From Planctomycetaceae bacterium (GTDB lineage: Bacteria; Planctomycetota; Planctomycetia; Planctomycetales; Planctomycetaceae): a DNA stretch of 37,500 bases. A program made the translations under genes and the position numbers. This document shows, in pieces, positions 7,306 to 19,741 of the stretch (positions are counted from its first letter, which is position 1; each line of letters starts with the position of its first letter). The notes beneath the pieces are model-generated. The model was not told where the DNA came from. It did not search any database and saw only the letters and a list, made by a program, of their open reading frames with translations. Where the stretch lies: positions 1 through 37,500 of the forward strand of contig WFTL01000133.1 in the NCBI GenBank assembly GCA_015485495.1, written 5' to 3'.

Positions 7306-9504
7306 TCAGTCCTGAAAAATGAATTCCGGCGTGTTGATCATGGCCCACATGAGATCCTCGATGGCTTCGCGCCGGGAAACATCCGGTGCATTCAGCACTT
7401 CGGCCACCAGTGCCGTTTCTTCTTCTGTCGGATTTCGCGCATAGATGCGGCGGTAAAGGTCCCGGGCCACTCCGGCAGCATCCCGGTCAGAAGCTGCCAG
7501 CCTGGCAGCGGTGGACGCGTCATCGTGGATGTCGCGTATGATCTGTTCGGAATTCATCAGGTGCAGTGTCTGCACCACCGCCAGATCCTTCGTCCGTTCA
7601 CAGGGAGGATCCTGATTGGCATCGGGACGCCCGAATGTGTCCAGAAACAAAGACGGCGTGCGGTGGGTCCAGATCTGTTTCGCTGTGGCCCCGGGCGGCA
7701 TCGCATCGAACCTGCGGGGAACTCCGGTCACAGCCGTCACCGCATCCAGCAGCACCTCAGCCCGCAGGCGGTGCCGGTAGTGGCGGGAATAATTGCGGGT
7801 GTCGGCCAGATTGCGTTCATTCGGCAGGGAACTGAGCTGATAGACGTGCGAAGCCGTGATTGTTCGGATGAGTTCTGCCAGGGAAAACCCGACATCGCGA
7901 AAATGTCGTCCCAGAGCTTCCAGCAGGGGCTGGTTGGTGGCCGGGTTGGTCGCTCGAAAATCGTCCACCGGCTCCACCAGCCCGCGGCCCATCAGGTCGG
8001 CCCACACCCGGTTGGCCATCACCTGAGCGAACAGAGGGTTGTCCGGTGACGTGATCCAGTCGGCCAGAACATCCCGCGGGTCGCGGTCGCCCGGTTCCGG
8101 CAGAGTCCCCCACAGCGGACGGGGTTCCATGACCTGCCCGGTCACCGGATGCGTCACACGACCGGCGGTGCCCGTAAAAATGAATTCTTCGGATCCCGAA
8201 ATCGGCGGCGACAGACCGGTTCCCTTGCGGCCGATGCGACCGAAGTACGCCGCGAAGTGATAGAAATCGTCCTGTCCCCACTTTTCGAACGGGTGGTGAT
8301 GGCATCTGGCACATTCCAGCCGCACACCGAGAAACAACTGGCTGACCAGAGTGGTGATTTCTTCCGGAGTCCGGCGATCCCGATACAGCGTCACGGCCCC
8401 GTTGCGAAAAGTGCTGCCCCTGGCACCGATCAGTTCGCGCACGAACTGATCCCACGGCATCCGTTCGTGAAACCGGCGACGGATCCAGTGGTCGTAATTC
8501 AGAACCGCCTTGATGCCCACGCGGTAGGGATTCGGGCGCAGAAGATCCATCCATTTCCCCGCCCAGTGATCGGCGAAATCCGGTTCGTCAAGAAGCCGGT
8601 CGACCAGCCGTGCCCGTTTGTCCGGACGATCATCCGTGAGGAACGCATCGACCTCTTCCGGAGTCGGAATCCGGCCGCACAGGTCGATCGTCACGCGGCG
8701 CAGAAACACGAAATCACTGCACCGTTCCGACGGCGTGATGTGCAGCTGTTTCAGACGCTGCCAGACCAGTTCGTCGATAAAATTCCGGACAGGCAGCCGA
8801 TCGTATTCTTCATCCGGAACGGGTTCGGGGCGCGGAATGAGTACGTCGCAGACGGCGATCCGTCCCATGAATCGCGCCATCACGGCCGTGCTTCCGGTGA
8901 TGGAACCGGCGGTCAGCAGACCGGATTCATCCACCGCGGCGATCGGCGCTTCATTCGACTGGAACAGAGCCAGATGAGTGACATCGCGCGTCGACCCGTC
9001 GTCGTACCGGGCCGTCACGCGCAGAGCCTGCTGCTGCCCCCACGCCAGCACAACCGAATCCGGCGTAACAGAGACGGCTTCCAGAGCAGGAGCCTCAGGA
9101 GCCCGACGCGGCATCCCCTGACGAATCCAGTTTCGGATGACGGCGTATTCCGCGCTGTCTGCCGGCAGCCGCAGTCCGCCGCCATGAGGAATCCGGCCGG
9201 CCGGTTTGGCCAGCAGAAGGCTGCGGTCCGCCGCGGCAGGAAACACCCGTCGACCTCGGGCCTGTTTCGTAATGGCATCGAAATCGAAATCGGCATCGAA
9301 ACCCAGCAGGGAAAGCTGAAAGCCGCCCTGCCCGCGTGCCTTCCCGTGACATGCTCCCTGGTTGCAGCCCTGCCGAGTCAGAATGGGAACAACGTCGTTC
9401 TGAAAATCGATCTCCACCGGTTCCGCTTCTGTTCCGAACGCCGTCGAACAGAAAACAGAGCCAAGGAGCAGAACAACAGAATGTCGATGGCAGCGCCGCA
9501 TCAT
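7306..9504 (-). CDS. DUF1549/DUF1553 cytochrome-like surface protein
   Basis: This 732-residue exported protein has the usual planctomycete order. A signal peptide (about 1-24) is followed by an N-terminal cytochrome-like segment containing C47-x4-C52-H53. A bacterial Ig-like (Big2) domain lies at about 120-210 (from V-S-V-T-P-D). DUF1549 follows at about 225-425 (R-N-F-I-D-E-L-V-W, then R-R-V-T-I-D-L-C-G-R-I-P-T) and includes a canonical C398-A-R-C401-H402 heme motif. DUF1553 fills the C-terminal part (A-N-R-V-W-A-D-L-M-G-R-G, then L-H-L-M-N-S). An alternative GTG start at 9564 would add 20 residues without a signal-like character, so the ATG-ATG pair at 9504 before the hydrophobic core is preferred. 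The gene heads the operon with DUF1501 and PPC and is divergent from the sulfatase. The precise role is unknown; heme attachment is inferred from the motifs. Confidence 0.92.
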   Translation of the reverse strand: MMRRCHRHSVVLLLGSVFCSTAFGTEAEPVEIDFQNDVVPILTRQGCNQGACHGKARGQGGFQLSLLGFDADFDFDAITKQARGRRVFPAAADRSLLLAKPAGRIPHGGGLRLPADSAEYAVIRNWIRQGMPRRAPEAPALEAVSVTPDSVVLAWGQQQALRVTARYDDGSTRDVTHLALFQSNEAPIAAVDESGLLTAGSITGSTAVMARFMGRIAVCDVLIPRPEPVPDEEYDRLPVRNFIDELVWQRLKQLHITPSERCSDFVFLRRVTIDLCGRIPTPEEVDAFLTDDRPDKRARLVDRLLDEPDFADHWAGKWMDLLRPNPYRVGIKAVLNYDHWIRRRFHERMPWDQFVRELIGARGSTFRNGAVTLYRDRRTPEEITTLVSQLFLGVRLECARCHHHPFEKWGQDDFYHFAAYFGRIGRKGTGLSPPISGSEEFIFTGTAGRVTHPVTGQVMEPRPLWGTLPEPGDRDPRDVLADWITSPDNPLFAQVMANRVWADLMGRGLVEPVDDFRATNPATNQPLLEALGRHFRDVGFSLAELIRTITASHVYQLSSLPNERNLADTRNYSRHYRHRLRAEVLLDAVTAVTGVPRRFDAMPPGATAKQIWTHRTPSLFLDTFGRPDANQDPPCERTKDLAVVQTLHLMNSEQIIRDIHDDASTAARLAASDRDAAGVARDLYRRIYARNPTEEETALVAEVLNAPDVSRREAIEDLMWAMINTPEFIFQD

Positions 9505-9667
9505 TCCAGGGCAGGACAGACCAGGCGGGGAATCGTGATAGGGAAGGGCAGAAAAGTGTACCACTTCTTCAGCAGGATTTCACGGATATCTCACAATCCA
9601 CGCTGTCGGGGCTGCAGTTCGCACGGCCCGTCGCATCAGCCTGCCAGCTTTCACAGGGAAAGAATCT

Positions 9668-9696
9668 TTGACGGTTCCCGCGGCAGTCGCTACACA
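9668..9696 (+). promoter_or_regulatory. Weak candidate promoter for the sulfatase
   Basis: TTGACG (9668-9673, 5 of 6 consensus) is followed after 17 bases by TACACA (9691-9696, 3 of 6). It lies in the divergent region about 80 bases before the sulfatase start. The -10 match is poor, so this is only a pointer. Confidence 0.22.
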
Positions 9697-9776
9697 GAAC
9701 AGCACGCCCTGCGCTGAATCCTCTCGCCGGCCCCGTTTTCCGGACGGCAGGCGGGCCCCCTGCCGGAGACACCGTG

Positions 9777-11312
9777 ATGCTGATGAAACGACTGCTGACA
9801 GCCGCCGCCCTGATGGTGCTGGCAGCGGCCGGACGGGCCGGGACGGTTTCCCAGACACCGCCGAACATCGTCCTGATCGTGGCCGATGATCTGGGATATC
9901 GTGAACTCGGATGTTTCGGACAGACGAGAATCCGCACGCCCCGCCTGGATCATCTGGCCGAACAGGGGATGAAGCTTCTTCAGCACTACAGCGGAAACGC
10001 GGTGTGCGCTCCGTCGCGCTGTGTCCTGATGACCGGGAAGCATCCCGGACATGCGTGGGTTCGCAACAATCGATCCACACCGCCGGAAGGCCAGTGGCCC
10101 CTGCCCGACAGCGAAATCACTCTGGCCGAACTGCTGCGGGACAGAGGCTACGTGTGCGGTGCGTTCGGCAAGTGGGGACTGGGAGGCCCTGGTTCCGAAG
10201 GCGTCCCCCTGAACCAGGGATTTCGACGGTTCTTCGGCTATCTGTGCCAGGCCCATGCCCACAGTTACTATCCGGCGTTTCTCAGAGTCGACAACGGACG
10301 GATCGACCTGAACAACAACCCTCCCGTTCCCGGTCACGCCGGACTGCCGCAGAATGCCGATCCGTCCGATCCGAAAAGTTACCGCCGTTTTCAGGGACAG
10401 GATTACGCACCGGACCGCATCAACGAACAGGTGCTGCAGTTCATCCGGGAACATCGAAACGAACCGTTCTTCTGCTACTACCCCAGCGTCATTCCCCATC
10501 TGGCGCTGCATGTTCCCGAAGACGATCTGAAACCGTATCTGGAACTGGGCTGGAACGACCCGCCGTTCACCCGCCGCCGCGGCGGGTACACTCCGCATTT
10601 CACACCGCGGGCCGCTTACGCAGCGATGATCAGCCGGCTGGACCGTTACGTGGGACGCGTTCTGGACCTGCTGGATGAACTGGGGCTGAGCGACAATACG
10701 ATCGTGATTTTCAGCAGCGACAACGGCACCAGTCACGTGAAGGACGAAGTCGATTACGAATTTTTTCGCAGCGTGGGCGAACTGCGAGGCCTGAAAGGAT
10801 CGCTGTACGAAGGAGGAATCCGGGTTCCCACAATCGTGCGCTGGCCCGGACATGTGCCTGGCGGAACCAGCAGCGACTTCGTCAGCGGCTTCGAAGACTG
10901 GCTGCCCACGCTGCTGGACATCGTGGGAGCGGCCGATGCGGTTCCGTCTGCCTGTGACGGCATCAGTCTCCTGCCGACCCTCACGGGACACCACCAGCAG
11001 GCCCGCCCGTTTCTGTACCGGGAATTCACCGGATATGGCGGACAGCAGTCCGTCCGTGCGGGCGACTGGAAAGCCGTGCGTCAGAAGCTGCTCAAAGCCA
11101 CCCGCATCCGCACGGAACTTTACAATCTGGCCGATGATCCATCTGAACAGCACGATGTGTCTTCAGAACACCCCGACATCCTCAGACGGCTGGAAAAGAT
11201 CATGACCCGCGAACACACCCCGTCGGCGGATTTCCCCATCCCGATTCTCGACAGCCCTGCGCAGGCTGCTGTGCCGGCCGGCCGGGCCGGAGGCAGCGTT
11301 GAAGACGGCTGA
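9777..11312 (+). CDS. Secreted type I sulfatase (arylsulfatase family)
   Basis: This 511-residue sulfatase hydrolyses sulfate esters, probably from sulfated polysaccharides, in the periplasm or outside the cell. The N-terminus is a signal peptide (K4-R5 then a Leu/Ala core to about residue 21). The metal-binding V-A-D-D-L-G-Y lies at 35-41. The sulfatase signature C77-A-P-S-R81 carries the cysteine that is converted to formylglycine by a separate maturase. G-K-W-G-L-G and F-S-S-D-N-G-T further on also fit the fold. The start is chosen at ATG 9777 because GGAG (9765-9768) lies 8 bases upstream; a GTG at 9774 and a second ATG at 9783 are alternatives. No maturase gene is present in the window. 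The substrate cannot be predicted. The gene is divergent from the DUF1549/DUF1501 operon. Confidence 0.95.
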
Positions 11313-11476
11313 TTTCCGCTGTCCGGTGTCGGCTTCCGACCGGGAATCGGGTGCCGACCGATCCAGGCTTTGTCCCGGCCGCCGGTTCTGGTATTGGTCC
11401 GGTCGCGTCAGGGGCGACTTTTGCCGTCAGGCCGAACAGTTCCCGTTCCCGATTTTCTTCGGACACAGCGTCTTTC

Positions 11477-13152
<1,676 letters not shown>

Positions 13153-13197: not shown

Positions 13198-13809
13198 TTA
13201 TTCGTTGTGTTCTGCCGGGTCGTTGAAGAACACGTAGTCATCCCCTTCTGCACTGCTGTGGCAGGCGATGCACCCGGCCGGTCGTCCGGACAGCAGCATG
13301 CCTCCCTGATCGGCCGGGGCCCGGGCGACAGAACCGTCGGGATTGTATTTGATCCAGTACCAGTCTCCGGCTTCCGGATTGTAGTTTCGCGTACGGTACA
13401 TCACGGTGATGGCAGCCAGTGTCGTTCCGTCGTTTCGGTAGTTCTCCTTCACAATGATGGCGAGGTCCGGCAGATCGGTCGGGTGACCGGCTGCCGTGCG
13501 GTTCAGATACATTTTCAGGAACGCTCCGTGAGGGCTCTGCCCCGAATACGCCTCACCGCTGCGGCCGGGAACGGGAGCCCAGTTGCGGTATTTCTGCGCC
13601 TGCAGGTACGCCCACAACCGCTGTTCAAAGCGTCCCTGATCAGACTGCCGTGACGACGAACCGGAATCGGATGGCATCCGACGCATCGGCCGGCGCCCAC
13701 TGCCCCGGGATCCGGACTGGGCCGATGCATCCGTCACCGACAGCCCCGCCATGGCGACCACCAGAATCATCACTACACGTCGACGACAACAGAAACGCAG
13801 CAGCTTCAT
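13198..13809 (-). CDS. Cytochrome P460-like monoheme protein
   Basis: This 203-residue exported protein has a signal peptide (R-R-R-V-V-M-I-L-V-V-A-M-A core, cleavage near D-A-S-A-Q), an Arg/Ser-rich linker and a C-terminal cytochrome P460-like domain. Features seen are W-A-P-V-P near the domain start, a conserved-type I-V-K121-E-N-Y segment and one heme-binding motif C180-I-A-C183-H184, near the C-terminus as in the family. Cytochromes P460 of ammonia oxidisers carry a lysine-heme cross-link and oxidise hydroxylamine; many relatives lack that activity. K121, 59 residues before the heme cysteine, is a candidate for such a lysine, but this is inference. The ATG at 13809 is chosen because it begins the signal peptide; the longer frame to 14178 has no such character. 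The gene is divergent from the His-rich peptide gene and convergent with glnS. Confidence 0.8.
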   Translation of the reverse strand: MKLLRFCCRRRVVMILVVAMAGLSVTDASAQSGSRGSGRRPMRRMPSDSGSSSRQSDQGRFEQRLWAYLQAQKYRNWAPVPGRSGEAYSGQSPHGAFLKMYLNRTAAGHPTDLPDLAIIVKENYRNDGTTLAAITVMYRTRNYNPEAGDWYWIKYNPDGSVARAPADQGGMLLSGRPAGCIACHSSAEGDDYVFFNDPAEHNE

Positions 13810-14192
13810 GGGACTTCCCCTGCGGACATTCAGAATCCCTGAGGGCACCGACGCAGCACGAAGTGCCGATCGAGACCGCTCCGACACAGGATGTGACGGG
13901 AATCGGCAGGTGCTGTTTACGGATATCTTCTCATTCGACCGCCGTTCTCCTGCCCGCAGACGGCTCCGTGTGAACCGCCTCACATACACGGTCCCTGCTG
14001 CGCCGCACTCCGGGACGAACGTGTCTGCGGACTGCAGATCCAGGCCGCAACAATGGCTCCCCCGTCGCGCCCCGGGGAAACCAGGAGACACGCACACACT
14101 TTTTTCGAGGATTCTGTAACAGCGCGTCTGCAGGGCCGTTCCTGAAGGTGTCGCACGGCAACCTTCAACCTTTCGCACCTGGAGACACGATC
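13810..14192. other. Divergent intergenic region (383 nt)
   Basis: The stretch lies between the starts of the P460-like gene (minus) and the His-rich peptide gene (plus), so it must hold at least one promoter for each. I see no convincing sigma70 pair. A run of six T lies at 14100-14105. A weak 6-bp inverted repeat (GAAGGT / ACCTTC) sits about 20-50 bases before the His-rich start and may form a leader hairpin. Frames through the region look non-coding. Confidence 0.5.
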
Positions 14193-14477
14193 ATGAAAAC
14201 GCTCGCCACCATCACTCTGACAGCCCTGATTCTGCTGGGCACGGGCCTGAATTCTGCCGAAGCCGGCCGTCGCCACGGAGGCCATCACGGGGGACACCGC
14301 GGCCGGGGCGGCCATCACGGCTGGAGTCAAAGCCGTCATCACGGCTGGGGCCATTACCAGCGACACCATTTCAATTACTACGGGTACAACGGCTATTACC
14401 CCGGTTATCACCACGCGGGCCATCATGATGTCCATGTCCCGATTCATCACGGCGGCCACGTCCATGGATGGTGGTGA
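14193..14477 (+). CDS. Small secreted His/Gly-rich protein
   Basis: The 94-residue precursor has a clear signal peptide (M-K-T-L then a Leu/Thr/Ala core, cleavage near S-A-E-A at about residue 24). The mature part of about 70 residues contains about 20 histidines, many in H-H pairs, with many Gly, Tyr and Trp residues and no cysteine. A 12-base unit (CATCACGGCTGG) occurs twice, at 14313-14324 and 14337-14348, giving H-H-G-W repeats, so the gene probably grew by short duplication. Such composition suggests binding of transition metals or heme outside the cytoplasm, but no family function is known to me. GGAG at 14181-14184 lies 8 bases before the ATG, a strong site compared with its neighbours and a reason to choose this start over 14148. 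A hairpin at 14506-14542 probably ends its transcript. Confidence 0.8.
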   Translation: MKTLATITLTALILLGTGLNSAEAGRRHGGHHGGHRGRGGHHGWSQSRHHGWGHYQRHHFNYYGYNGYYPGYHHAGHHDVHVPIHHGGHVHGWW

Positions 14478-14505: not shown

Positions 14506-14542
14506 CGGCGTCCCTGACCGGAATATTCCGTCAGGGACGCCG
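14506..14542. terminator. Bidirectional hairpin at convergent gene ends
   Basis: A perfect 13-bp stem (CGGCGTCCCTGAC 14506-14518 with GTCAGGGACGCCG 14530-14542) encloses an 11-base loop that contains the self-complementary GGAATATTCC. It sits between the convergent His-rich and glycosyltransferase genes. No T-run follows on either strand, so it may stall polymerase or protect 3' ends, and need not be a classical intrinsic terminator. The right arm includes the stop codon and last three codons of the glycosyltransferase gene. Confidence 0.65.
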
Positions 14543-16080: not shown

Positions 16081-17979
16081 GTGTGGACGAAACACCCATT
16101 CCGAGTGTGGCTCGAACGGGAACCACAGTTCGGCCGTTTTATCGTGGCCGGGATGGCCCTGGCCGTGTGCGCTCTGTCGGGAACTTTGGCAGCGGCAGAA
16201 TCTGCCGATCCGGATCCCGACGACCCGCGGACTCTTTACGAACAGGCCATCGATCAGGTGCATGCGGATGTGTTCCGGGACAACTGTTTCCCGTCAGCCC
16301 GGCAGTGCGCTGCCTGTCATCCGCGGCATTTCCGGGAATGGTCCGTGTCATCGCACGCCTACGCTCAGCTCAGTCCGGTGTTCCATGCCATGGCGAACCG
16401 TCTGAACACGCTGACTTCCGGCACCCTGGGAGACTTCTGCATCCGCTGTCACACTCCGGTGGGAATGGCGCTGAACGAACCGGTCAGCACGAGCAATCTG
16501 AACCGTCATCCGGTGTCGCGCGAAGGCGTGACCTGCGTGGTCTGTCACCGCATCAATCAGGCATGGGGAAAAGGAGCCGGGCGCGTGGCGCTGGTTCCCG
16601 GCGATCTGCATCAGCCGGTGTACGGTCCGCGCGGCAGCGCCGTGCTGCGGCAGATTCTGGCAGATCCGGACCGCTACGGTGTTCTGAAAACCAGAAAGGA
16701 GCCTCAGGTCCGGGGACGCGATATCCATGGAGCATCTTACCGATTCTTTCAGCTCATCCGACCCGGATTCTGCGCGGTGTGCCACGATGTGTTCGCACCG
16801 GATGGTTTTCGTCTGGAAGACGCCTTTTCGGAATACAAGCAGTCGCCGGCGGCCCGCATCCACGGCCACACCTGCCAGGACTGTCATATGGGGATTTCTC
16901 CGGGCGAACCGAATGGTTACTCGTGCGGTCCGGCGGCCGTCATCGGCAATGTGACGACTCCCCCGAGGCGCCATGCCAATCACATGGTTGTGGGCCCGGA
17001 CTATTCGATCGTTCACCGGGGCCTGTTCCCGCACCATCGCACGGCGATCCGTGAAGAAGGAACGGTCGATCTGATCGATCAGGCCACCGATGGGGAGTTC
17101 CACGAAACCGGGCTGGCCACCATGCGGGAATGGCTGCTGTTCGACGATGCCGGCGGCTGGGGAACGGATGCATTCGAAAGCACGGTGAGTCCGGACCGGT
17201 GGTTTCCGTCGCCCTGGAACAGTCCGCAGCGGCGCCGGGCGGCCCGCCGGATTCTGGAGGAACAGGGCCGGCTGCTCGCCGAAGCAGCCGATGCCCGGCT
17301 GCGGCTGCTGAAGGCAGGGTATCGGCTCGGACCGATTCGGGTGCGGCGCTGCGATTCCGATCGCATCGACTTCGAAACCGAACTGTCGAACGGAACGACC
17401 GGTCATTCCGTTCCCACAGGATTCGACGCGGAGCGTGTCGTCTTTCTGAGAGTGCATGTGTGGGCACCAGACGGCCGGCTCGTGTTTCAGTCCGGAGACC
17501 TGGATCCCAACGGAGATCTCCGGGACAGCCATTCCCGCTATGTTCACAACGGCCTGCTGCCGCTCGACCGGCAGCTCGTCTCCCTGCAGTCGCGCTTCGT
17601 TACCCGGAATCTGCGGGGAGGCGAACGCGAGCAGGTGCTCAACGTGCCGTTCTCGCTGGATCCGCTGCCGTACGTGCGCCCGTCCACACGCCCCTTCACG
17701 GTGCTCGGTCGGCCGATCGGTGCCAGAAAACACAAACAGAACATCGAACCAGGCGGCAAGATCTCAGCCGTGTACTCGCTGCGGGGACGCCAGGTCCCCT
17801 GCCCGGGCCCCTACACAATCCAGGTGCAGCTCATCGCCGGAATGGTCCCTGTAAATCTCATTCATGAAATCTCTTCTGCCGGATTCGATTACGGGATGAA
17901 CGCCCGTCAGGTGGCTCAGCGCATTGTCGCCGGTCACCTGATTGTTCATGAACGAACGGCCGTGGTCACGGTTCGGTAA
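16081..17979 (+). CDS. Exported five-heme c-type cytochrome
   Basis: This 632-residue exported protein has five CxxCH motifs, starting at Cys 76, 120, 152, 231 and 265, all in the N-terminal half, so it should carry five c-type hemes. Its arrangement resembles the cytochrome c554-type multiheme group. After a His-rich segment (H-A-N-H-M then F-P-H-H-R, about 300-325) that may supply distal ligands, the C-terminal half lacks heme motifs and is beta-rich (G-H-S-V-P-T-G-F-D at about 441-449). That half resembles the C-terminal extension found in many multiheme cytochromes. The signal peptide is at about 18-39 (F-I-V-A-G-M-A-L-A-V-C). The start is GTG at 16081: a stop lies 15 bases upstream in frame, and the next Met is already inside the hydrophobic core. 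A beta-barrel gene follows 67 bases later. Electron transfer is certain in class, but partners are unknown. Confidence 0.85.
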   Translation: MWTKHPFRVWLEREPQFGRFIVAGMALAVCALSGTLAAAESADPDPDDPRTLYEQAIDQVHADVFRDNCFPSARQCAACHPRHFREWSVSSHAYAQLSPVFHAMANRLNTLTSGTLGDFCIRCHTPVGMALNEPVSTSNLNRHPVSREGVTCVVCHRINQAWGKGAGRVALVPGDLHQPVYGPRGSAVLRQILADPDRYGVLKTRKEPQVRGRDIHGASYRFFQLIRPGFCAVCHDVFAPDGFRLEDAFSEYKQSPAARIHGHTCQDCHMGISPGEPNGYSCGPAAVIGNVTTPPRRHANHMVVGPDYSIVHRGLFPHHRTAIREEGTVDLIDQATDGEFHETGLATMREWLLFDDAGGWGTDAFESTVSPDRWFPSPWNSPQRRRAARRILEEQGRLLAEAADARLRLLKAGYRLGPIRVRRCDSDRIDFETELSNGTTGHSVPTGFDAERVVFLRVHVWAPDGRLVFQSGDLDPNGDLRDSHSRYVHNGLLPLDRQLVSLQSRFVTRNLRGGEREQVLNVPFSLDPLPYVRPSTRPFTVLGRPIGARKHKQNIEPGGKISAVYSLRGRQVPCPGPYTIQVQLIAGMVPVNLIHEISSAGFDYGMNARQVAQRIVAGHLIVHERTAVVTVR

Positions 17980-18046
17980 CAGACCAGACCTGTTGACAGC
18001 CGGTCTGCCGAACGGCGGCAGCAGGAACATCAGAAATTGTCGTCCG

Positions 18047-19741
18047 ATGAAACCCGTTTCCCGGCATCACGGCATTGTCCGGACCGTTCTGCTGCCGGTC
18101 CTGATCCTGATCGTCGCATCAGGATCAGGACCGGCCGACAGGACGGAGCGCGCTGCCGCGGTGGTGTCGTACGAACCGGTTCCGACGGAAGGTTCGGTCG
18201 AAACCCCGCCTGTTCCGGAAGGCGATGCCCGGCCCGGCGTGGCCACGTATGGTGAATCTTTCGGCAACCCGTTCGCTCCGGCTGTCGTCTACGACCCGAA
18301 CGTCCCTCAGCCCGAACCGCCACCGATCGGTCAGTTTCTGGAACACCTTCCGGAGCTGCTTTCGAAGCCGGCGGAACCGGCCGCCGAAATCGCTTCCCAC
18401 ATCCTACACGCGGAACACGACCGCGTGACGACCTCGCTGAGCAGTCAGCCCCTGGGCATGCGGCCGATTCCCGGCCGCCCTCGCCTGCTGGTAGAAACGG
18501 GCGAACGGTTTCTGGCCCCCGGGTTTCTGAAACAGGGGATCCGTCTGCCGACGGGAGCCATCTGGCGTCCGTCGCTGTGGGTTTTCGGCACACTGAGAAC
18601 GGGCGTCAGTTATTTCGACAGCGGTGCTCCGGGGCATGTTTCCGAATGGGCCAATCGTCTGGACCTGTTCTCCCAGCTCAACCTGACCGGAACCGAACGA
18701 CTGGTTCTGGGGCTGCGCCCGCTGGATGAGCAGGCCGGTGCGGTGCGGCGATTCACCGGTTACGATTTCGATCGTGGACGACCGCTGGATGCCTGGAACG
18801 ACGGCGTCCAGACACTGTTTTTCGAAGGGGATTTCGGCGAAATCTTTCCCCGCCTGGACCCCGACGACAGGCGGGCTCTGGACTGGGGATTTTCTGTGGG
18901 TCGGCAGCCGATGCTGTTTCAGCAGGGGCTGCTGCTGAATGAAGACCGCATCGACGCCGTGACGGTCACCCGCAACACGCTTCAGGGACACGGCCATCTC
19001 AACGTGCGGGTCACCGCCGTGTGGGCCTGGAATGACATCAATCGGATGACTCCCGCCGGCCTCGCTCTGCCGGATGGCCGTGCCCGCCTGATCGGTCTGT
19101 TCACGGAAAGCGATGTCCGCGGCAGTACGATCAATGCGGACATCGCCTGGGTGTGGTCGGATCGCCGCACGGACGATCTTCTGGTGACGGGTCTGAGTGC
19201 CATTCAGCGGATCTCGGGATACCGGAACATCTACAATTCTTCCGTGCATTTCCTGGCCTCTTTTCCCACCACGGCGGAAACTCCACTTGCCGGTCAGGGA
19301 GAACTGCTGTTCAGCCAGTTTTCCTGGACGCCCCATCACACGCACGACCTGGTGTATCTGAATGCCTTCTGGGCCATCGATCAGTTCACGTCGGCTTCCC
19401 GCGGACCGCTCGCCGGCGGCCCGCTGGGGCAGACGGGCATTCTGTTCACAGCCCCCGGACTGGGCCGTTATGCGGCTCCGCTGAACAGCCAGGCGACGAA
19501 TGTGGTCGGAGCCAGTCTGGGATACCAGATGTTCTTCGACGACACGCGGCAGCAGCTCATTCTGGAAGTGGGCGGCCGGCAGGACACGGACAGCACGGAC
19601 CAGGCCGCTGCGGCAGCGGGATTCCGCTGGCAAAAGAAGCTCAGTCAGCACTGGCTGATCGTCGTCGACGGATTCGTGTCGAAGCGGGAAGGCCGCGGCG
19701 TCGGGCAGGGTGGCCGAGTGGAATTCCAGATGAAGTTCTGA
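18047..19741 (+). CDS. Outer-membrane beta-barrel (porin-like) protein
   Basis: The 564-residue product has an N-terminal signal peptide (I-V-R-T-V-L-L-P-V-L-I-L-I-V-A-S-G). A Pro-rich linker follows at about 50-110 (N-V-P-Q-P-E-P-P-P-I-G). The rest, about 430 residues, consists of alternating amphipathic strands and polar turns that end in Phe (E-F-Q-M-K-F), the usual signature of an outer-membrane beta-barrel inserted by the Bam machinery. I do not recognise a named family. The frame is open from 17942, overlapping the cytochrome gene, but ATG 18047 is chosen because the signal peptide follows it directly. It lies 67 bases after the cytochrome gene on the same strand, so cotranscription is likely. 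A conduit for electrons or a channel for the cytochrome's substrate is a plausible inferred role. It converges on the phosphohexomutase gene with an 8-base gap. Confidence 0.78.
   Translation: MKPVSRHHGIVRTVLLPVLILIVASGSGPADRTERAAAVVSYEPVPTEGSVETPPVPEGDARPGVATYGESFGNPFAPAVVYDPNVPQPEPPPIGQFLEHLPELLSKPAEPAAEIASHILHAEHDRVTTSLSSQPLGMRPIPGRPRLLVETGERFLAPGFLKQGIRLPTGAIWRPSLWVFGTLRTGVSYFDSGAPGHVSEWANRLDLFSQLNLTGTERLVLGLRPLDEQAGAVRRFTGYDFDRGRPLDAWNDGVQTLFFEGDFGEIFPRLDPDDRRALDWGFSVGRQPMLFQQGLLLNEDRIDAVTVTRNTLQGHGHLNVRVTAVWAWNDINRMTPAGLALPDGRARLIGLFTESDVRGSTINADIAWVWSDRRTDDLLVTGLSAIQRISGYRNIYNSSVHFLASFPTTAETPLAGQGELLFSQFSWTPHHTHDLVYLNAFWAIDQFTSASRGPLAGGPLGQTGILFTAPGLGRYAAPLNSQATNVVGASLGYQMFFDDTRQQLILEVGGRQDTDSTDQAAAAAGFRWQKKLSQHWLIVVDGFVSKREGRGVGQGGRVEFQMKF

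Follow-up and report, generated by a model that had tools for sequence, protein, structure and literature searches.

The stretch of DNA analysed here, referred to below as the window, comprises 37,500 nucleotides of contig WFTL01000133.1 from a Planctomycetaceae bacterium (assembly GCA_015485495.1). At its centre lie two adjacent genes, one for a multiheme c-type cytochrome (C) and the other for an outer-membrane beta-barrel (B); their features are collected in Table 1. The original prediction, made from the sequence alone, described two same-strand genes 67 bases apart, encoding an exported-looking protein with five CxxCH motifs in its N-terminal half and a 564-residue outer-membrane barrel ending in Phe. 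This description is borne out: the stop codon of the C gene and the start of the B gene are separated by 67 bases on the same strand, the heme motifs of C are confined to residues 76-265, the first 43% of the protein, and B gives a confident model with the C-terminus ...MKF.

Table 1. Features of the cytochrome and barrel genes, in window coordinates
Feature	Position	Strand	Description and basis
Pentaheme c-type cytochrome C	16081..17979	+	632 amino acids, GTG start; Pfam Cytochrome_C554
Probable Sec signal peptide of C, residues 1-38	16081..16194	+	Judged by eye from the translation
Heme motif 1 of C, CAACH, residue 76	16306..16320	+	Cys and His invariant in alignment A1
Stretch with five invariant non-motif His of C (92, 216, 301, 442, 484)	16354..17532	+	Candidate sixth heme ligands
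Heme motif 2 of C, CIRCH, residue 120	16438..16452	+	Motif scan, alignment A1
Heme motif 3 of C, CVVCH, residue 152	16534..16548	+	Motif scan, alignment A1
Heme motif 4 of C, CAVCH, residue 231	16771..16785	+	Motif scan, alignment A1
Heme motif 5 of C, CQDCH, residue 265	16873..16887	+	Motif scan, alignment A1
C-terminal beta domain of C, residues 414-632	17320..17976	+	DSSP of AlphaFold model; matches to immunoglobulin-like (Ig-like) domains
Outer-membrane beta-barrel B	18047..19741	+	564 amino acids, ATG start, C-terminus ...MKF; structure model
Perfect 18-bp inverted repeat with 6-nt loop, within the signal-peptide codons of B	18094..18135	+	Sequence, RNA folding
18 predicted membrane strands of B, residues 176-563	18572..19735	+	DSSP of the model; face pattern

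When the translation of C is read by eye, a hydrophobic, signal-peptide-like segment is seen upstream of residue 39. Among 20,000 residue shuffles of the protein, CxxCH occurs 0.013 times on average and never more than once. All 81 C open reading frames (ORFs) in the 80 related loci described below carry exactly five heme motifs. The five His outside the motifs that are listed in Table 1 are each invariant, in 17 of 17 rows of alignment A1 and in 75 of 75 rows of alignment A6, the two alignments overlapping in genomes. The number of invariant non-motif His in A1 equals that of the core hemes; A6 has seven, two of which are not invariant in A1. To judge from this conservation, the five His are candidates for the sixth ligands of the five hemes. 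Such complete bis-His ligation would make C an electron carrier rather than an enzyme with an open heme site.

The only part of C that Pfam names is Cytochrome_C554 (30.1 bits, cut-off 20.8), and in an NCBIfam scan neither C nor B exceeds any family cut-off. An AlphaFold model of C from 75 sequences (predicted local distance difference test (pLDDT) 78.5, predicted template modelling score (pTM) 0.81) combines a helical heme domain with a beta domain at the C-terminus. Its match over nearly the whole chain is to the penta-heme cytochrome c552 of Thermochromatium tepidum (5ze8; Z 15.3, 351/385 aligned, root-mean-square deviation (rmsd) 4.6), while all but one of the other 49 listed fold matches are limited to the Ig-like domain at about residues 370-594. 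The two proteins share a heme domain followed by a C-terminal domain with an H..PTG motif, but are only 17% identical in the structural alignment. A profile comparison also links them (E 1.8e-16), with a weak second stretch of similarity at the H..PTG motif. We know of no porin partner of c552. The pentahemes of cable bacteria are reported to share one family with Geobacter ExtKL and to resemble c552 in structure; according to the same source, c552 itself has not been given a clear role (PMC11976967). The ExtKL model NF040886, whose equivalog cut-off is 250 bits, gives C of the window 21.4 bits, which falls short of it, and two of its relatives 51 bits (a six-heme relative, E 8.5e-14) and 32.4 bits. 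With its five-heme domain and C-terminal beta domain, C belongs by computation to the pentaheme c552/ExtKL fold group.

For B, Pfam yields nothing above cut-off, its one hit being Porin_4 with 12 bits against a cut-off of 27. When 72 family barrels were scanned singly, three stray families appeared, with one member each and a best E of 0.027. A C-terminal Phe is present in 67 of the 72 full-length barrels. The AlphaFold2 model (72 sequences; mean pLDDT 87.7, pTM 0.82) has a low-confidence N-terminus and two helices ahead of 18 long strands, as counted from DSSP elements with five short ones excluded. Hence the fear that the barrel prediction might fail or show too few strands did not materialize. 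Foldseek ranks OprD/Occ channels and the MOMP of Campylobacter as the best matches of the model (E 4e-10); with OccK7 (PDB 4frt) it gives a VIA Z of 28.5 and an rmsd of 2.8 over 323 residues, at 10% identity. B thus shares the 18-strand fold of the OprD/Occ channels, but differs from them in having no Pfam match, so that no membership of the sequence family is seen, and in having a cytochrome partner gene. The original prediction had called the barrel a family it did not recognize, which is true of the sequence and not of the fold.

Most strands of B have one clearly more hydrophobic face; two of them (3 and 6) show little contrast. With faces assigned by hydrophobicity, the less hydrophobic face is the better conserved (mean entropy 1.14 versus 1.96) and includes invariant Arg, Glu and Gln. 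Residues that line the lumen of a barrel are usually the better conserved ones. By formula, assuming a 37-degree tilt and 4.4 Å spacing, the backbone radius is estimated at about 16 Å for 18 strands and about 23 Å for 26. MtrB is described as having 26 strands (PMC7198977), and an MtrB-type barrel is rejected for B on this difference from its predicted 18. MtrB does not appear among the best 50 fold matches of B that were listed, a listing that does not exclude a match to it. Given 18 predicted strands rather than 26, a fully inserted MtrA-like wire is unlikely in B.

The two genes are inherited together. In a survey of 392 genomes of the phylum, taken to be Planctomycetota from their match to named contigs, C was found in 60, B in 60 and both in 59, and 62 of 65 barrels follow C immediately and share its strand, which rules out chance adjacency. 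The barrel count derives from 67 rows less two second fragments (G265, G076). Two of the three other barrels stand at contig starts (G081, G076) and one does not (G128:C37). The cytochrome count took 70 rows with at least 243 bits or of near full length, weaker ones being dropped, including a 193-bit piece in G212. Sixty-five of the 70 are paired, meaning that a same-strand barrel follows within 3 kb, by which rule the first of two tandem cytochromes also counts as paired; the other five have no barrel within that distance. Among 59 relatives, the window's genome (G000) included, the cytochrome at E<1e-40 and the barrel at E<=1e-3 occur in the identical 17 genomes, and weaker cytochrome matches (E up to 1e-3) add 20 genomes, for a total of 37 of 59. 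C and B share contig and strand in 16 of the 17; in G014 they are on separate contigs and the cytochrome runs into its contig end. Two congeners have neither gene, save for a short broken match in one of them. That match (L021, G001:C23:3569-3796) covers part of the heme domain, contains three TGA and one TAA codons and is possibly a pseudogene remnant.

A scan of named genomes returned 392 related loci; only the best 80 were retained, and all counts over 80 loci rest on these. A barrel follows C in 76 of them. C is cut by the contig end in three of the others (L079, L085, L088), and about 840 bases remain behind a shortened C in the fourth (L131). The two genes are therefore not separated in most relatives, and the earlier reading of a porin-cytochrome pair, which was of the right kind, survives this test as well as that of strand number. 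By record title the loci fall into nine phylum-level groups: Planctomycetota, Acidobacteriota, Verrucomicrobiota, Pseudomonadota, Nitrospirota, Gemmatimonadota, Rhodothermota, Myxococcota and KSB1. They are mostly metagenome-assembled genomes, as are many of the relatives, and individual taxon labels may be wrong; named isolates of Nisaea, Thalassobaculum, Tistlia and Sulfidibacter are also represented.

In one Acidobacteria metagenome-assembled genome (L119, 8824-12243), C and B are fused in a single ORF of 1139 residues. Related barrels start with a hydrophobic signal peptide, which is missing at the L119 junction in all three frames; a frameshift artefact is rejected for this reason, and the locus appears to be a genuine fusion and not a sequencing error. 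In even-stranded barrels the N-terminus is on the periplasmic side. As the C-terminus of C joins that N-terminus in L119, C would be periplasmic or sit in the mouth of the barrel.

There are variations on the pair. Ten of the 17 pair-bearing genomes have a six-heme form of C, the additional heme lying within an N-terminal domain that is termed PSCyt1-like only: in three six-heme relatives this region scores 18.2-18.7 against the Pfam cut-off of 22, and the name PSCyt1 itself was dropped. Two full-length family cytochromes stand in tandem before one barrel in L125 (2161-7841), G157:C22, G243:C110 and G384:C65, an arrangement reminiscent of two cytochromes per porin. Contig G192:C1 carries one pair near 627-631 kb and another near 463-467 kb; by match range, with hemes uncounted, the former seems to be six-heme and the latter five-heme, and a 10-heme gene lies about 7 kb from the latter.

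In many relatives C and B are part of a larger cluster. Its other members, as defined by scanning one or two representatives of each, are a FAD/NAD/2Fe-2S reductase (R), a 4-heme (or 8-heme) c554-type cytochrome (T), a cyclic-nucleotide-binding and 4Fe-4S protein of which the tested member matches PF13247 (N), a membrane protein of about 280 residues (M) and a 10-heme cytochrome (D), with 10 hemes in 32 of 41 ORFs. Single-linkage grouping finds T at 56 of the 80 loci, N at 46, M at 42, D at 41 and R at 34, short contigs hiding some of these genes. The commonest whole-set orders are C-B-R-T-N-M-D (15 loci) and C-B-T-N-M-D (9 loci); in several planctomycetes the remaining genes are divergent to the pair or upstream of it. 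Of the 44 M ORFs, 40 contain both WX3HX13H motifs and 34 contain SGXXG. This set recalls PCC4, which He et al. 2017 proposed from gene lists, also in Planctomycetes. In that proposal a porin is joined by periplasmic cytochromes of 4, 5 and 10 hemes, by an Fe-S protein of PF13247 and by a membrane protein that has five helices, two WX3HX13H motifs and SGXXG (PMC5566968). The porin and 5-heme cytochrome have their counterparts in the window, while the relatives add the 4- and 10-heme cytochromes, the PF13247 protein and the membrane protein with its two WX3HX13H motifs and SGXXG. By composition and motifs, the cluster of the relatives matches PCC4. Phylum-wide, D occurs in 37 of 59 pair-bearing genomes and in 26 of the 44 that are at least 90% complete, leaving 18 without it. 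Where D is out of view at the locus (20 loci), it is present elsewhere in 14 of the 20 genomes, so a bare pair does not imply a reduced genome.

On balance, we lean towards the view that C and B make up the outer-membrane module of an electron conduit of the PCC4 type. In its favour stand the gene pairing, the L119 fusion, the cluster of the relatives, the distribution of T, the predicted folds, the place of C in the cytochrome tree, the five invariant His and the constraint on both genes. C would be exported and lie against B from the periplasmic side, or reach partway into its mouth, with T as its periplasmic partner. Electrons would move by way of T and C to an acceptor, or from a donor, to which B gives access, either outside the cell or in the lumen of the barrel. 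A barrel of 18 strands seems too narrow to hold a fully inserted wire like that of MtrAB, and contact at or in the mouth, via a partly inserted heme, is preferred for this reason. With its dedicated inner-membrane part probably lost, the module of the window's genome would draw on the general pool of periplasmic cytochromes.

Several observations weigh against this view. PCC4 is itself called putative by He et al. (PMC5566968), no experimental test of it was found in the literature searched, and the PCC4 identity of the cluster rests on composition and motifs. A crude hydropathy count on three M proteins gives four or five helices, against the five of PCC4. In the window's genome, D was not found at E<=1e-20, with 19 of the 21 candidates from a first look scored, nor any member of the N family, the counterpart of the PF13247 protein (subgroup II) of PCC4, at E<=1e-40 (19/19 scored), nor M at E<=1e-10 (23/23 scored). 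The ten six-heme genomes have no D and no T (both at E<=1e-20). An electron route to the inner membrane is thus not shown in either case, because the former is without the inner-membrane part and the latter are without D and T. Co-inheritance is not perfect: in the phylum survey, G081 has B without C and G304 has C without B. The model of C is of only moderate confidence, and the closest of the folds listed for B are substrate channels, MtrB not being among those listed.

On the same searches for D, N and M, at the thresholds given, a full PCC4 is rejected for the window's genome, which is 98.2% complete. In contrast to PCC4, this genome has no detected 10-heme, Fe-S or membrane protein and only two tetrahemes, unlinked to the pair; the porin, the 5-heme cytochrome and the 4-heme part of PCC4 are nevertheless all represented. 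The tetrahemes are tandem c554-type T homologues on contig C3 (L148, G000:C3, ORFs 9388-12261), scoring 281 and 247 bits with the T model. That contig was scanned with the N, M, D and R models and gave no match; it ends at the expected position of R, which was searched on C3 only. Among the 59 relatives, T at E<=1e-20 is present in all seven genomes with a five-heme pair, in none of the ten with a six-heme pair and in none of the 42 pairless ones. The T model includes rows from three of those seven (G008, G013, G014), and the match in G021 is partial. In G008 and G014, T adjoins the pair and the genome has no D. Among the six-heme genomes, weaker M-like matches occur in G012, G019 and G032 (54-79 bits, versus at least 230 in G013, G016 and G020), and weaker N-like matches in G012 and G032 (174-268 bits, versus at least 700 in the same three).

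In the cytochrome tree, a quick one in which the L056 branch is very long and unsure in its placement, C of the window is nested with L068, L069 and L070, from genomes that have D (SH-aLRT 97 and 100). When rows are labelled as full or solo from the 10-heme gene alone, 17 of 87 being unlabelled and left out of the counts, at least seven changes are needed, five of them forced by well-supported branches. Because C of the window is nested among D-bearing relatives, loss in its lineage is the simplest reading, the alternative being an assembly gap. It appears that this lineage has probably lost the dedicated inner-membrane part (D, N and M), and that the module is most likely reduced there to C, B and T.

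Among known systems, MtrAB, PioAB and MtoAB likewise have an outer-membrane barrel encoded with a multiheme cytochrome, but theirs has 10 hemes, and MtrB 26 strands, as compared to five hemes and 18 predicted strands for the window pair. Cyc2 is also a cytochrome-porin unit, to which the L119 fusion is analogous; it is described as a single polypeptide with one heme, unlike the two genes and five hemes found here (PMC6344600). The eight-heme porin clusters described in Verrucomicrobia (PMC5615132) were set aside on account of their different heme count. A further parallel is ExtI with ExtKL of Geobacter, a porin and a periplasmic pentaheme (PMC6148476). As in the window, the porin is encoded with a periplasmic pentaheme of the fold group of C and without an outer-surface cytochrome (PMC5877670, PMC6148476). 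The differences are that C is far below the ExtKL cut-off and that no rhodanese gene stands beside the window pair, and ExtI is likened to B by description. The Ext clusters of Geobacter are reported to include the pentahemes ExtC, ExtF and ExtKL (PMC6148476), so that five hemes being too few is no objection. The suggestion in the original prediction of a new, smaller type was half right, since the larger cluster matches PCC4, put forward in 2017, and ExtI with ExtKL is a published analogue.

A second possibility, raised at the outset as a cytochrome plus a substrate channel, gains weight from the Occ-type fold and is kept as a rival, though it is not the one we favour. B would be a substrate-specific channel admitting a soluble redox substrate (an oxyanion, a chelated metal or a quinone) and C a periplasmic reductase or oxidase, or the donor to one, with no electrons crossing the outer membrane. 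The 18-strand fold is that of substrate-specific channels (Z 28.5 with OccK7), and the presumed lumen face is rich in conserved Arg, Asp, Glu and Gln and is the better conserved, which is in part a general trait of barrels. ExtI, whose gene accompanies that of a pentaheme from the fold group of C, is a porin for which the authors describing it weigh a channel role, and deletion of extI is reported to affect the reduction of selenite and tellurite but not that of Fe(III) citrate (PMC5877670). The fold and this phenotype keep the channel a serious rival. However, each of the five hemes could find its sixth ligand among the five invariant His, with no obvious site left open; the 4-heme and 10-heme cytochromes that accompany the pair, together with the membrane protein, resemble a long electron chain; and the L119 fusion fits a stable complex better, while not excluding a channel plus enzyme.

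It is improbable that the reduced pair of the window is a decaying remnant without function. Such decay would be in keeping with an inner-membrane part that is not found at the thresholds used, and with the 42-base perfect hairpin in the signal-peptide codons of B. RNA 18040-18180, around this hairpin, folds much better than shuffles (z -5.6), and L068-L070 have no perfect stem of at least 12 bp at the site; the hairpin may act as a brake on translation, or it may have arisen by insertion or as an artefact of assembly. Yet both frames are intact, and all heme motifs and invariant His are retained. The nearest relatives are 57-65% identical in C (5 genomes) and 51-61% in B (5 genomes, one truncated by a contig end). 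Compared to L068, the proportions of non-synonymous (pN) and synonymous (pS) differences are 0.20 and 0.72 for C and 0.25 and 0.75 for B, and differences from L068-L070 are mainly synonymous, indicating that both genes are constrained. The non-synonymous differences resemble those among full-set relatives, those of B being slightly higher. Moreover, reduced sets persist, as the 18 of 44 high-quality pair-bearing genomes without D attest.

Most improbable of all is that C is secreted or surface-exposed and polymerizes into an extracellular cytochrome wire with B as its exporter or anchor: although c552, the best structural match of C, is reported to be related to the archaeal nanowire AvECN (PMC11976967, citing Baquero et al. 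2023), the L119 fusion places C at the N-terminus of the barrel, hence on the periplasmic side, C has a large C-terminal Ig-like domain, and a barrel of 18 strands offers little width for the secretion of a folded heme protein.

Some neighbouring features of the window deserve mention. About 2 kb upstream of the pair, positions 13198-13860 on the minus strand encode a protein with one CIACH motif that matches Pfam Cytochrome_P460 (34.3 bits, cut-off 27). A His/Gly-rich ORF of 109 residues at 14148-14477 on the plus strand has a signal-like start and no Pfam match; its product is perhaps a metal-binding protein beside the P460 gene. Between two convergent ORFs, at 14506-14542, lies a 13-bp perfect stem that is likely a bidirectional terminator.

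PCC4 as a proposal, and ExtI with ExtKL as an analogy, were already known. The present analysis adds the predicted porin fold of the 18-strand Occ type, the link of C to ExtKL and c552, the L119 fusion, the variant with six hemes, the association with T and the reduced form of the system. None of these points, and no link between PCC4 and ExtKL, was met in the literature searched, which does not prove them unpublished. A more specific model, which we put forward tentatively, assumes a minimal port in which a pentaheme of the c552/ExtKL fold, related to nanowire cytochromes, docks on a narrow 18-strand Occ-type barrel and, served by small tetrahemes only, exchanges electrons with the outside without an inner-membrane complex. 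Such a port would have been uncoupled repeatedly from PCC4, and its six-heme form would work without T as well. If this is true, outer-membrane electron exchange would be common in planctomycetes where it has not been suspected, by a mechanism unlike the insulated wire of MtrAB. The near-perfect co-inheritance of C and B, and a tetraheme as the part retained when the inner-membrane half is missing, help to narrow the question of whether planctomycetes exchange electrons across the outer membrane to a set of two or three proteins.

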